DNA from: an uncultured Flavobacteriales bacterium
Lineage (GTDB): Bacteria; Bacteroidota; Bacteroidia; Flavobacteriales_D; Crocinitomicaceae
DNA length: 64,000 bases
Direction: 5' to 3'
Assembly (NCBI GenBank): GCA_943789205.1
Contig: CALSTG010000001.1
Span: forward strand, 982,435-1,046,434
Under the pieces are notes generated by a model. The model saw only the letters and a program-made list of their open reading frames with translations, was not told where the DNA came from and did not search any database. Both the position numbers and the translations under genes were made by a program. Shown here piece by piece: positions 3,514 to 29,004 of this stretch (within the stretch, counting starts at the first letter, position 1; the number at the start of each line of letters is the position of its first letter).

Positions 3514-4911
3514 TTAATTGATATCGACATTTACATTACCTGTAATATTGGTTCTTACATAGAGTCGTTTAGGACCTAAAAAAATATTATTTATACGCAA
3601 CAAATCCAGTCTAGTATTAACATATACTCCGGGGTAAACCTCTCCATTTAATTTACTTTCTAAAGTCGATAATAACCTATTTAAATTTGATGACATGTCA
3701 ATTTTTGACTTTTCCATAATTGTACTTTTAATCCTATTCCCTAACAACCATCCTGCAGACTTTAATAATAATGCCTTTGTTTTTAACTCAAAGTCAACGT
3801 CTTCTAGACTCAATACTTGTGTCTCTAAATCCATTATAGGCCTGCATATTAGATATATCTTTCCTTGTCGAAAGCCCTCAAATTCCATGCGTAAAACCAG
3901 CTTCCCTGACTGCGTTCCTACAACACGCAAATTTCGCACCACAATATCTTTACCTTTAATAGAAATTATTTGGTCTTTAAATGCGCTTGTTAGTATAGAC
4001 GATAATGAATCGTAACTGGCTGCAGCATCCGCTAAAATATCAAAGCCTTTTACCTGTTTTTCGGACTTCATAGGCTTTAAAGAGGTGTACCTATAGCCTT
4101 GATTTTCTGTACTTATTAAAGGTGAGAAGAATAAACTTAATGAAAATTTAGCCGTATTGCCTTCATAGCTTAGTGCTGACATTGAAAACGACTTAGGGTT
4201 TAAATATAATTGCCCATACATATCAATAGGCAAAGGCTCTTGAAGCTTTTTCCAAGCATCCTCAATTTTAGATTTCACATCTATTGCGCCCAACTCCTTG
4301 TCAAGTTTTGATTGCATGTCCTTAAGTTCTTTTGTGATCTCTTTTTGTACTTTATCTGTAACGTTATATTTTAGAAACGTCACCTCGCAAGGATCCTTTA
4401 TTACAAAAGACTTTAAGGTTGTTTTTGCCTGAAACTTATAGTCTTTACTCAGCCCAACCTTAGTTAAATAAGACATGGAATAACGTCTTTTGGGCTCACC
4501 TATACCACAAGAGGCGTAAATTCTTGGAACGGTGCATGATTCCTTTCCGTTCCAGAGCGTTATGCATAATGGGCAATAATTCAAGTCTAAAGAAAACCCT
4601 CCTGAAATAGTAGTCTCAAGCCGACTTGCTTTTGTGGCAAAAGCGATGGGTTTTCGCGTAAAAACATATGCATAACTCATTCCCTCACAATTAGTACTTT
4701 TCCCCTTAAAAGTTTTAGGTGTCGTCTTTTCAGCCTCCTTAAATAATTTATTCATATCGACTTCGACATCTACATTCATTCTTGAAATCACAGGTTCAAT
4801 CTTTTTTGGAGATGTCATTGTAAAGTCAGGAATTGCGGGCTCAATGGTTTTACATGAAACCAAAATGAGGACAATAATTATAAAATAGAGCGACTTCTGT
4901 CTTCTAAACAT
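3514..4911 (-). CDS. DUF4403-family lipoprotein
   Basis: This 465-aa predicted lipoprotein has signal FIIIVLILVSC (Cys20). The body is beta-rich, and its C-terminal half (YLICRPIMDLETQVLSLEDVDF followed by a KSAGWLL helix) resembles DUF4403 proteins of Bacteroidota, which have no established function. It has a local Cys-rich stretch (NYCPLCITLWNGKESCTVPRIYASCGIG) that could form disulfides in the periplasm. It is the first gene of a two-gene minus-strand unit with the OmpA-family gene. The family assignment comes from remembered motifs, not a search. Confidence 0.7.
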   Translation of the reverse strand: MFRRQKSLYFIIIVLILVSCKTIEPAIPDFTMTSPKKIEPVISRMNVDVEVDMNKLFKEAEKTTPKTFKGKSTNCEGMSYAYVFTRKPIAFATKASRLETTISGGFSLDLNYCPLCITLWNGKESCTVPRIYASCGIGEPKRRYSMSYLTKVGLSKDYKFQAKTTLKSFVIKDPCEVTFLKYNVTDKVQKEITKELKDMQSKLDKELGAIDVKSKIEDAWKKLQEPLPIDMYGQLYLNPKSFSMSALSYEGNTAKFSLSLFFSPLISTENQGYRYTSLKPMKSEKQVKGFDILADAAASYDSLSSILTSAFKDQIISIKGKDIVVRNLRVVGTQSGKLVLRMEFEGFRQGKIYLICRPIMDLETQVLSLEDVDFELKTKALLLKSAGWLLGNRIKSTIMEKSKIDMSSNLNRLLSTLESKLNGEVYPGVYVNTRLDLLRINNIFLGPKRLYVRTNITGNVNVDIN

Positions 4912-24327: not shown

Positions 24328-24660
24328 ATGGACATATTTAGAATCTGCATTCTATTCTCGAGCATTTCTTTCTTTTTTTACTCAATATACTACTTCATCT
24401 CCGCCAGGATGAAAGATGAATTGAAGCGATTGGGCATGCAAAATTTAGGAAGGGTAATCGTCATCTGTCAATTTCTTGGCGCTACCGGACTACTACTTGG
24501 TTTTATTTACAAGCCTTTATGGAGCGTTTCTTCTTTGGGGCTTGCATTACTTATGTTTTGTGGTTTAGCCGTTCGATTTCGATCAAAGGACAGCCTTTGG
24601 GTTTCTCTACCGGCACTGTTCTATTTGATCTTAAATTCCTATATCTTTTTTTATGCATAA
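24328..24660 (+). CDS. DoxX-like small membrane protein (second of a pair)
   Basis: This 110-aa protein has four predicted helices and the same layout as its neighbour: an N-terminal helix, a short polar segment (RMKDELKRLGMQNLGRVIVICQFLGATGLLLGF), then a R/K-rich turn (VRFRSKDSLW) before the last helix. It is probably a diverged paralogue by tandem duplication. A terminator hairpin follows directly. Confidence 0.75.
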   Translation: MDIFRICILFSSISFFFYSIYYFISARMKDELKRLGMQNLGRVIVICQFLGATGLLLGFIYKPLWSVSSLGLALLMFCGLAVRFRSKDSLWVSLPALFYLILNSYIFFYA

Positions 24661-24662
24661 AT

Positions 24663-24694
24663 AAAACAGCCACACATAATGCATTGGCGGTTTT
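24663..24694 (+). terminator. Terminator after the DoxX-like pair
   Basis: A 10-bp stem AAAACAGCCA/TGGCGGTTTT with one mismatch around a 12-nt loop ends in T4, just after the stop at 24660. Confidence 0.6.
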
Positions 24695-24775
24695 AATAAA
24701 GCAACTACTATTTATAAGAACATCGAATTATTTAGAAACATTAATCTAAATTAAGAACGACAATAGCAAAAAAAA

Positions 24776-24799
24776 GCCTCGCGATATGGCGAGGCTTTT
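24776..24799. terminator. Terminator after the thioredoxin-like gene (bidirectional)
   Basis: The perfect 7-bp stem GCCTCGC/GCGAGGC is flanked by an A-run and T4, working for the minus-strand thioredoxin-like gene ending at 24818 and possibly the plus strand. Confidence 0.8.
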
Positions 24800-24817
24800 A
24801 AATATAAATGGAATAAA

Positions 24818-25486
24818 TTATTCACCAAAAGCAAATATTTTTTTTGTAGTACCGTCAGCATAAACATAAATAAGCGGCGTGTTCGCTTTGAATTCAGTTT
24901 CGCGGCCCATATGGTCTAAAATTTTAACCACTACTTTTTCTGATCCTATCATGTCCATAACATTAGCTGATTGGAGCCATTGATCGCTAAGAATGTGGTT
25001 CAAAGTATTCATGTCATGACCACTATAAGCGAGTGTGCTTGCGCCCGGGTTTTCTGCATTAGGAATGAACAATAAAAACCAAGGTAGTGTAGTTGCCCCA
25101 CTCTGCGTGTATTTATTAATGTATGCTTGAAGCTCACTTTCAATATTAATAAAGGAAGGATAACTTGTTCCATGTTCTACGCTCCAAAGGTCTGCATCAT
25201 CACAGTTAGCAGTATTAAAATCGTAATCTTCGTGAATGAATCCAAACACCTTGACGTTTTCACTCATTGTGTTTTGCCAAAGACTCTCAGTCGCTTGAAC
25301 ACCTGCAATGCTCCCTGCACACCATAAACTTGAAAAGTTCATGACAACTGCTTTTCCCTTAGAAAGCTCTGTATACATGCTGTATTCATTTCCTTCACAC
25401 GTCGTAAGCGTCCAGTTTGGAACTTGTGCGGTTAAGGCTAATGTAAGCCCCATAAATAATGTAATTAAAGACATTTTCATACTCAA
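24818..25486 (-). CDS. Secreted thioredoxin-like protein with T9SS-like C-terminus
   Basis: This 222-aa protein has a signal peptide (ending about TAQ) and a redoxin-like fold: VVMNFSSLWCAGSIAGVQATESLW, then FGFIHEDYDFN and LPWFLLFIPN. The active-site-like position has only one Cys (C56, WCAGS), so it cannot form the usual dithiol. The last ~40 residues (VVVKILDHMGRETEFKANTPLIYVYADGTTKKIFAF) resemble the short C-terminal sorting region seen in many flavobacterial T9SS cargo. It probably acts outside the cell or at its surface. Single gene with its own promoter and terminator. Confidence 0.75.
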   Translation of the reverse strand: MSMKMSLITLFMGLTLALTAQVPNWTLTTCEGNEYSMYTELSKGKAVVMNFSSLWCAGSIAGVQATESLWQNTMSENVKVFGFIHEDYDFNTANCDDADLWSVEHGTSYPSFINIESELQAYINKYTQSGATTLPWFLLFIPNAENPGASTLAYSGHDMNTLNHILSDQWLQSANVMDMIGSEKVVVKILDHMGRETEFKANTPLIYVYADGTTKKIFAFGE

Positions 25487-25514: not shown

Positions 25515-25599
25515 CACATTCTTTCATAGTAACAAACAATTTATAAGTGATTTTTATTTTTTATATCTTATTTATTCAGAGGGTGTTACACAATTTATT

Positions 25600-25768
25600 A
25601 AGTGTGTATTTGACACAAAGTGCGTTAGGCCTAGCTTTTTTTGAGCATGCTTCATGAATACCATTAACTTAGTCGTATGAAAAGACTTGCCATAGGGTGG
25701 CAAAAATAAAATATTCATTTTATCGTTTTGTAGTTAAAGAGGTTTGGGTATAACCCCAAACTTTTTTT
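25600..25768 (+). ncRNA. Candidate structured RNA ending in a terminator (no gene upstream)
   Basis: The 320-nt gap between a divergent minus-strand gene and the AsmA-like gene contains two clean plus-strand hairpins: TTGCCA/TGGCAA at 25687-25703 and the terminator at 25742-25768. No plus-strand ORF precedes them, so a terminator here implies a short transcript or a leader attenuator for the gene starting at 25807. The 5' end is a guess; no exact promoter is seen. Confidence 0.3.
25742..25768 (+). terminator. Rho-independent terminator-like hairpin before the AsmA-like gene
   Basis: The perfect 7-bp stem GTTTGGG/CCCAAAC around TATAAC is followed immediately by a T7 run. It lies 39 nt upstream of the AsmA-like start, with no coding sequence before it on this strand. 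Confidence 0.75.
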
Positions 25769-25806
25769 AATTTATAACCATATCTTTAGCACACCTTAAT
25801 GCATTC

Positions 25807-28800
25807 ATGAAAATAACTTTCCTTAAAAAAAGAAAATTTTGGATCCGTTTTACAGGTATTGTACTCGCAGTTCCCGTTGTTGTTTTGAGTATCGCAATAG
25901 CTGTTCTTTACCTTAAACAAGATGGTTTAATTCAATCTGAAATAAACGCGCTCAACAAAAACTACAAGGGCGAAATCAAAGTTGGTGATACGCATTTAGA
26001 ACCCTTTGCAAATTTTCCCTACATCTCAATTAAAGTTGATAACGTGCACATCCACGAGTCGAAAGCGCCTGGAGCAGACGAACTTCTTCATGTTGCCGAT
26101 ATTTACGCTGGATTTAACATTTGGGATATTCTCAAGGGGAACTATGATGTTAAAAACTTACGCATTGAAGACGGGTTTTTAAACCTCATTTACCACAAAG
26201 ATGGTACACTGAATATTCAGAATGCTTTGGCAACAAATTCAGATACTGAGGAAAGCGCTCCTCTTGACATTCATTTAAAAAATATTGAATTGCGCAATAT
26301 TGACATTCATAAACTTGATGAAACCTCTAATGTTGATATAGAAGCTTTTGTGTACAACGCTAAAGGTGGGTTTCAGACTGCAGGGGAACTAATTAATGCA
26401 CATATCGATACGGAATTTGAATTAAACGTCGTAGAAAATGGCGATACCACATACATCAAGCACAAGCACTTTGAATTTCATACAGATCTCTCTCTCAATG
26501 ACCAAACAGGTCTTTTGGTTTTAAAACCTTCAGGTATTCGCATGGAACATGGTGATTTTGACATCGAAGGCTCTATTGACCTTAAAAATGAAGCGACATT
26601 AGACCTTGCTGTAAAGGGTACAAAGCCGAATTTTGATATGCTTATTGCCTTTGCGCCAGAAGAGCTAATTCCTGTTCTTGAGCGTTATAAAAATGCTGGA
26701 AATATCTATTTGAATGCTATTATCAAAGGGCCAACACTTCATGGGGTAATGCCTTTTATCGATGTGAATTTTGGAGCAAGTGAAGCCTATCTCGAAAATA
26801 CAAGTGTACGGAAGAGAATTGACGACCTAGGCTTCGAAGGTCATTTTACAAATGGTGCTAGACGCAATCTAAAAACAATGGAATTTTCACTAAAAGGAAT
26901 GCGCGCCAAACTTGAAACGGGAACTTTTTTAGGTTCTCTTTTGGTAAAAAACTTTGAAAATCCAGAGGTTGATATGCAGCTGAATGCAGACTTCAATGTT
27001 GATTTCCTTACAAAGTTCTTGAACTTAGAGGGCCTTAAAGCCGATGGAAGTGCTCAGCTAGATATAAGATTTCATGATATTATAGATTTAGACAACCCTT
27101 CATCTGCTTTAAACGAACTGAATCAGGCTTATTTCAGTGAATTAATTGTAAAAGATCTAAGCCTAGAATCTTCAGACCTACCAGCGCCACTAAAGAAACT
27201 CGATATGCATCTTGTTATGAATGGCAAAAAAGCGGACCTTGAGCTATTTGACATGGTTTTTGGGGCTTCTGACCTATCCATTAAAGGTTACCTCTCGGAC
27301 TTGCCGGCTATTGTGCACCATGCTGATGTTCCCGTTAGCGCTCATCTCGAAATGACTTCTAATAAACTTGATCTATCAGAAATCACAAACTATTCAAAAA
27401 AGGACAGCGCTGGGATTGATGAAATGATTAAAGAATTAAAGCTTGGGCTCTCGTTCAATACTTCTGCACGAGAATTTACAGAGTCTAAAAACCTTCCTGA
27501 AGGAGAATTCTTTGTAGATAACCTGCATGCAACACTTAAAAATTATCCGCATGAATTACATGATTTTCATATCGATATACTCGTTGGAGAAAGAGATTTA
27601 AGCATCAAAGACTTTAAAGGTTTTATTGATGATTCTGACTTCCGTTTCAATGGTCTTGCTCATGACTATGGCTTTTGGATGAAGGAAAAGCTTGACGGAG
27701 ATGTTGATTTAGACTTAACATTACATGCTGATTTGTTACGTTTAGAGGACGTGTTTTCGTACGGAGGAGAGAATTATGTGCCTGAAGATTATAGACATGA
27801 AGAATTAAAGGGACTCGAATTACACATTAAATCCAATATGCACTATAAAGAATCTACGCTTCATTCTATCGACCTTGAGCTAGACCGTCTAAACGCTAAG
27901 ATGCACGTCCACCCTATGCGTTTTGAGAACTTTAATGGTCATTTTTATTATGAAGACGAACACATAATGGTTAAAGCATTCCAAGGAAAGATTGGACGAA
28001 CGGACTTTGACCTTGATATGAATTATTATCTAGGAAAAAATCAAAGTATCAGAAAAAGGGACAATCATCTTGGAATTAAATCGAATTATATTGACTTTGA
28101 CCAACTTTTTAATTTTGAGCTGCAGAGCCCTGAAAAAAAAGAAGAAAAAAGTACCAAACAAAATATTACAACACATGAAGAGGCCTTTAATCTGTATGAG
28201 CTTCCTTTTACCGATATGACAATTGACGTGGATGTAGCTCAATTTCTTTATCATCGTATAGATTTACAAAAAATACACGCGCGTCTTCGTACTATGCCCA
28301 ACCATTATTTATATGTCGACACGCTCGACTTAAAAGCAGCGGGAGGAAATGTTCGTATGTCAGGTTATTTTAACGGAAGCGATCCAAAGCATATTTATTT
28401 AAAACCGAACCTAAAATTCAAAAACGTAGAATTAGATAAGTTGCTTTTTAAATTTGAAAATTTTGGGCAGGATGCCATCGTTTCTGAAAACCTTCATGGA
28501 AAACTCACCGCTTCAATTACAGGTAAAATAAGGATGTCCCCTGACATGGTGCCTGATATTAATCAATCCGATATTCATATTGATATGAGTGTCTTAGATG
28601 GGCGCCTAGAAAATTATGACTATATGCTTATGTTGTCAGATTATATGGGAGATAAAGACCTTACCTCCGTGCGGTTTGACACACTCGAAAATCATATGGA
28701 TATTACCAATGGAGAACTTAATATCCCTGCAATGACCATTGAGTCGACGTTGGGACATTTTGAGCTTTCAGGTAAACAAGACTTAGCGTTTAATATGGAA

Positions 28801-29004
28801 TATTTTATCCGTATCCCATGGTCACTTATCAAGCAAGGTGCACGATATAAGCTATTTGGAGACAAAAAAACTGCCGATGGACAAACAGGAGACGATAAAA
28901 TTATCGAAGTTGATCCCAATAAAAAAACACGCTACTTAAATTTGAAAATTAAAGGCAATGCCGACGATTATAAAATTACCATTGGAAAGGATCGAAAAAA
29001 TTAA
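25807..29004 (+). CDS. AsmA-like family envelope protein
   Basis: This 1065-aa protein has an N-terminal membrane anchor (WIRFTGIVLAVPVVVLSIAIAVLYL) and a long repetitive beta-rich periplasmic part. The last ~150 residues (ASITGKIRMSPDMVPDINQSDIHIDMSVLDGRLENYDYM then ADDYKITIGK) match the AsmA C-terminal type. AsmA-clan proteins are bridge-like factors that help lipid transport or outer-membrane biogenesis; the exact role here is unknown. A terminator-like leader lies upstream. It is a single gene. Confidence 0.8.
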   Translation: MKITFLKKRKFWIRFTGIVLAVPVVVLSIAIAVLYLKQDGLIQSEINALNKNYKGEIKVGDTHLEPFANFPYISIKVDNVHIHESKAPGADELLHVADIYAGFNIWDILKGNYDVKNLRIEDGFLNLIYHKDGTLNIQNALATNSDTEESAPLDIHLKNIELRNIDIHKLDETSNVDIEAFVYNAKGGFQTAGELINAHIDTEFELNVVENGDTTYIKHKHFEFHTDLSLNDQTGLLVLKPSGIRMEHGDFDIEGSIDLKNEATLDLAVKGTKPNFDMLIAFAPEELIPVLERYKNAGNIYLNAIIKGPTLHGVMPFIDVNFGASEAYLENTSVRKRIDDLGFEGHFTNGARRNLKTMEFSLKGMRAKLETGTFLGSLLVKNFENPEVDMQLNADFNVDFLTKFLNLEGLKADGSAQLDIRFHDIIDLDNPSSALNELNQAYFSELIVKDLSLESSDLPAPLKKLDMHLVMNGKKADLELFDMVFGASDLSIKGYLSDLPAIVHHADVPVSAHLEMTSNKLDLSEITNYSKKDSAGIDEMIKELKLGLSFNTSAREFTESKNLPEGEFFVDNLHATLKNYPHELHDFHIDILVGERDLSIKDFKGFIDDSDFRFNGLAHDYGFWMKEKLDGDVDLDLTLHADLLRLEDVFSYGGENYVPEDYRHEELKGLELHIKSNMHYKESTLHSIDLELDRLNAKMHVHPMRFENFNGHFYYEDEHIMVKAFQGKIGRTDFDLDMNYYLGKNQSIRKRDNHLGIKSNYIDFDQLFNFELQSPEKKEEKSTKQNITTHEEAFNLYELPFTDMTIDVDVAQFLYHRIDLQKIHARLRTMPNHYLYVDTLDLKAAGGNVRMSGYFNGSDPKHIYLKPNLKFKNVELDKLLFKFENFGQDAIVSENLHGKLTASITGKIRMSPDMVPDINQSDIHIDMSVLDGRLENYDYMLMLSDYMGDKDLTSVRFDTLENHMDITNGELNIPAMTIESTLGHFELSGKQDLAFNMEYFIRIPWSLIKQGARYKLFGDKKTADGQTGDDKIIEVDPNKKTRYLNLKIKGNADDYKITIGKDRKN

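Follow-up and report, generated by a model that had tools for sequence, protein, structure and literature searches.

An orphan intrinsic terminator in a Crocinitomicaceae genome is very probably the remnant of a deleted three-gene operon

Within a 64,000 nt stretch of the genome of an uncultured Crocinitomicaceae bacterium (the window), an intrinsic terminator without a gene in front of it is very probably the scar of a clean 1,452-bp deletion of a three-gene operon, of which it would represent the surviving tail. The terminator is located in a gap bounded by a divergent gene on the minus strand (24818–25486), which encodes an AhpC/TSA (thioredoxin-like) protein (PF00578, E 3e-5, just below the curated cut-off), and by an AsmA/DUF748-like gene on the plus strand (25807–29004). 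The sequence-only reading of the window had described two plus-strand hairpins in this gap, without a plus-strand gene before them, and had proposed that these reflect either an unseen transcript or an attenuated leader of the AsmA-like gene. Both hairpins were found where they had been described, and the list of open reading frames (ORFs) agrees, with no plus-strand ORF of at least 40 aa ending between the divergent gene and the AsmA-like gene, except for one which is an antisense overlap with the divergent gene and ends at 25529. The sole plus-strand frame beside the hairpins has 10 codons (25677–25709, ATG AAA AGA CTT GCC ATA GGG TGG CAA AAA TAA), and on comparison with relatives turns out to be a gene remnant. 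No Rfam family matched the region above its gathering score, and relaxing the E-value added nothing beyond chance matches under the cut-off.

In 40 relatives, the DNA of the complete gap had short and weak matches only, and a genus-wide search of 85 congeners identified one in which the gap is split by approximately 1.45 kb of other DNA. This contig (JAKMFD010000075.1, Crocinitomicaceae bacterium MOX_bin63, labelled G059 in the genus-wide search and L069 hereafter) has an AsmA-like protein 95% identical to that of the window. In the genus-wide search, the left part of the gap (to 25694) was 81% identical to this congener and the right part (from 25694) was 96% identical, while a direct blastn alignment of the window with L069 gave 91% identity up to 25694 and 95% beyond it. 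Positions 705 and 2157 of L069 meet at 25694 in the window, with a single A shared between the two sides; the junction of the deletion is thus at 25694–25695, and the DNA missing from the window relative to L069 is exactly 1,452 bp.

The intervening DNA of L069 contains three plus-strand genes followed by the same terminator as in the window. The first gene encodes a 225-aa putative membrane protein without a Pfam family, the second a Crp/Fnr-like regulator of approximately 160 aa with a cNMP_binding domain slightly below the Pfam cut-off, and the third a CDGSH iron-sulfur protein of 67 aa (zf-CDGSH, E 3e-18). The same three genes, with the same AhpC/TSA-like and AsmA-like flanking genes and the same terminator hairpin after them, are present in a second relative (JAQXCN010000030.1, also labelled G066 and termed L072 hereafter), which has an AsmA-like protein approximately 72% identical to that of the window and serves as the outgroup. 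In L069, a terminator-like hairpin (GGGTAA-ATAGTC-TTACCC-T7, L069:627–652), missing from both the window and L072, is located ahead of the operon, and the start codon of the first gene is ATA rather than ATG (L069:688–690); the operon in L069 may be decaying too, or may use a later start. A YceI-family gene is located in L072 (732–1394, minus strand) between a DoxX pair and the AhpC/TSA-like gene; it is missing from the corresponding position of the window (24660–24818), and two YceI genes are present elsewhere in the window's genome.

Searches of all contigs of the window's genome found no orthologue of the first gene or of the CDGSH gene, and gave only a marginal match for the Crp/Fnr-like regulator (E 0.18), which is not an orthologue. 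The assembly from which the window derives is a draft of seven contigs, and the junction might therefore be artefactual and the operon still be present in the species, but this is extremely unlikely, as the junction is on a 2.2 Mb contig with both flanks clean, the one base shared at the junction offers no repeat for mis-joining, and the three genes lack orthologues on all of the other contigs.

What is left in the window on either side of the junction can be assigned to the two ends of the operon. Gene 1 retains its initial six codons, with the ATG, at 25677–25694, and this 18 nt sequence, which reads ATGAAAAGACTTGCCATA in the window and ATGAAAAAACTTGCCATA in L072, is the only coding sequence of the lost operon left in the window; its frame now runs to a stop codon at 25707–25709. 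It is directly followed by a remnant of the 3′ untranslated region (3′ UTR) of the CDGSH gene (25695–25735), of which 40 out of 41 nt are identical to L069. The start of gene 1, the 3′ UTR, the terminator and the −7 element of the AsmA-like gene all align across the window, L069 and L072.

The second hairpin (25736–25768) corresponds to the terminator of the lost operon, with arms AAAGAGGTTTGGG and CCCAAACTTTTTTT, a TATAAC loop and a subsequent run of seven T residues, and has its counterparts at 2201–2228 in L069 and at 3936–3957 in L072. Its predicted folding energy is −14.3 kcal/mol, compared to a mean of −6.0 for shuffled sequences (z −3.6, with 0/200 shuffles as good), and it was also picked up by a terminator scan, which detected a total of 6 sites in the region versus 1.8 expected. 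The earlier view that this is a terminator is hence borne out by both fold and scan, which indicate a strong intrinsic terminator. The first hairpin (25687–25703) has a weaker fold (−7.8 kcal/mol, z −2.3). The beginning of gene 1 supplies one of its arms (TTGCCAT) and the CDGSH 3′ UTR the second (GTGGCAA), with the junction located in the loop. As its arms derive from opposite sides of the junction, the first hairpin is a by-product of the fusion and was absent before the deletion. The two hairpins do not occur as a conserved unit in relatives, with the first being absent before the fusion and the second being the operon terminator.

A tree built from twelve AsmA-like proteins has the window and L069 as sisters (support 100/100) within a set of five that includes L072 (100/98). 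L072 branches outside the window/L069 pair, and also outside L070 and L071, although the latter with a support of only 84/93. As the operon is present in L072, which is outside the window/L069 pair, the distribution is most simply explained by the operon being ancestral and lost in the window. A gain of the operon by insertion in the relatives was considered, and is ruled out by the 18 nt of the gene 1 start retained in the window together with the presence of the operon in the outgroup. In L070 (1406–1534) there is neither operon nor terminator, and the divergent AhpC-like and AsmA-like genes are directly adjacent, while L071 has a distant Crp-like gene before its AsmA-like gene (27–29% identity). 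With the operon also absent from L070 and L071, loss or replacement must have occurred more than once, and the module at this site looks prone to loss or exchange. Crp-like and CDGSH genes are also found together at other loci in congeners, accompanied by DoxX or YceI genes (L123:2236–3424 and L124:2649–3543), which suggests that they form a recurrent redox-related gene set.

The ancestor of the window would thus have had a plus-strand operon encoding the membrane protein, the Crp/Fnr-like regulator and the CDGSH protein, in divergent orientation to the AhpC/TSA-like gene and with an intrinsic terminator at its end, immediately ahead of a separately promoted AsmA-like gene. A single deletion in the lineage of the window very probably took out the operon from codon 7 of gene 1 into the 3′ UTR of the CDGSH gene, leaving the conserved start region and the terminator of the operon back to back, and the terminator would lack a gene because its operon was deleted. 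The deletion itself is ordinary, recent and well supported.

The probable promoter of the lost operon (25640–25672) was assigned by alignment and by comparison with the flavobacterial −7 consensus TAnnTTTG (PMC9723704), and consists of TTTG at 25640–25643, a 21 nt spacer and TAACTTAG at 25665–25672, which is one base off the consensus. The sequence AATACCATTAACTTAG, which is located just 5′ of gene 1 and contains TAACTTAG, is identical in the window, L069 and L072. An alternative promoter with TTTG at 25609–25612, a 19 nt spacer and TAGCTTTT at 25632–25639 was rejected in favour of the conserved TAACTTAG element, because it is located in the least conserved stretch of the region (38/57 identical to L069). 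An inverted repeat GTGT-N7-ACAC (25602–25616), located between the two divergent promoters, is kept in the alignment of the window, L069 and L072, and may have served as operator for the lost Crp/Fnr-like regulator, in which case the AhpC/TSA-like gene is perhaps also affected.

The AsmA-like gene has a −7-like element of its own (TATCTTTA, 25781–25788) located 3′ of the terminator, and TATAACCATATCTTTAGC, which represents this element, is identical in the window, L069 and L072 (18/18 bases). Counterparts were found as TACCTTTA in L005 and TAACTTTA in L070, both of which are genomes without the terminator, and in L070 the AsmA-like gene is preceded by TTTG-N19-TAACTTTA. When read by eye, the element in the window, L069 and L072 is without a clearly recognisable TTG at −33. 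The upstream DNA is unrelated in most AsmA orthologues, for which reason a conserved AsmA leader was rejected. Leader attenuation of the AsmA-like gene, as put forward from the sequence alone, is unlikely because the terminator comes before the conserved −7 element of this gene. The terminator might have become an attenuator in an AsmA-like leader only after the deletion, through read-through from the old operon promoter, since the deletion brings that promoter to approximately 130 nt ahead of the AsmA-like gene, and the weak −33 box means that the gene may partly depend on read-through. We consider this unlikely as well, given that the −7 element is conserved downstream of the terminator and has related counterparts in the terminator-free L005 and L070, and that the fold shows no alternative anti-terminator pairing. 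Following the preferred explanation of a deletion scar, the terminator would now mainly shield the AsmA-like promoter from relic transcription.

The surviving start region and terminator may still give rise to a relic transcript of approximately 90 nt (25677–25768), and if the promoter assignment is right, we infer that it starts close to 25677 and stops at approximately 25768, with three predicted hairpins and the 10-codon frame. The RNA from 25677 to 25769 folds with −24 kcal/mol, versus −14.8 kcal/mol for shuffled sequences (z −3.2). In the segment from 25695 to 25769, 3 of the 75 sites differ from L069, compared to 14% at the fourfold-degenerate sites of the AsmA-like gene (P ~0.005), and alignment with L072 places at least two of these three differences on the side of the window, with one window-side change converting the G-C pair at the base of the terminator stem to G-U. 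Such constraint on 25695–25769 would be expected of an mRNA 3′ UTR and terminator during most of the period after the lineages split, and is no proof of a function after the deletion.

The better-than-shuffled fold, the lower divergence of the 3′ part from L069 when compared with AsmA fourfold sites, and the retained promoter-like start region could together point to a functional small RNA (sRNA) of approximately 90–120 nt expressed from the gap and ending at the terminator, perhaps a CDGSH 3′ UTR-derived RNA which has outlived its mRNA. This is very unlikely, however, as the first hairpin arose only with the deletion, the earlier role as mRNA terminator and 3′ UTR would account for the conservation, a window-specific change turned the basal terminator pair from G-C to G-U, Rfam lacks a match, and the 85 congeners hold no further full-length copy. 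We likewise consider it very unlikely that the deletion itself gave birth to a new sRNA, with a regulated operon promoter driving a 90-nt, three-hairpin RNA, in part made by the fusion and in part inherited from the 3′ UTR, that was kept for its function; literature searched at title and abstract level contained no direct precedent for sRNAs born of gene loss. A short relic transcript is possible, whereas a function for it is unsupported, and if the relic promoter still fires, its product of approximately 90 nt would be without function. The unseen transcript predicted from the sequence alone is therefore accurate in part: the terminator is genuine and its gene was indeed unseen, having been deleted and with the operon present in two relatives, but a dedicated sRNA is not supported, as the hairpins are explained by the fusion and by the mRNA terminator.

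The situation resembles the orphan intrinsic terminators described during sRNA gene prediction in Sinorhizobium meliloti (PMC2573895), in that the terminator cannot be assigned to a flanking gene and has a promoter-like sequence upstream, but differs in that the orphan state here was created by deletion of the operon which the terminator served, as shown by the relatives. With the Crp/Fnr-like and CDGSH gene set of L069 and L072, the window shares homologous flanks, the beginning of gene 1, the 3′ UTR and the terminator, but it has lost all coding sequence save for six codons. As in mRNA leader attenuators, the terminator is upstream of a co-directional gene, but here the gene that follows is equipped with a separate, conserved −7 element past the terminator, and a competing anti-terminator was not detected.

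An orphan terminator, which is often used as a cue for an sRNA gene, can thus be the scar of a lost operon and need not signify an sRNA gene, and a single genome comparison suffices to separate the two. The comparison also shows that a redox-type module of Crp/Fnr-like and CDGSH genes was lost within a Crocinitomicaceae lineage. Should the relic transcript be produced, the locus would be a young case of promoter-terminator fusion, which is one possible route to new sRNAs.
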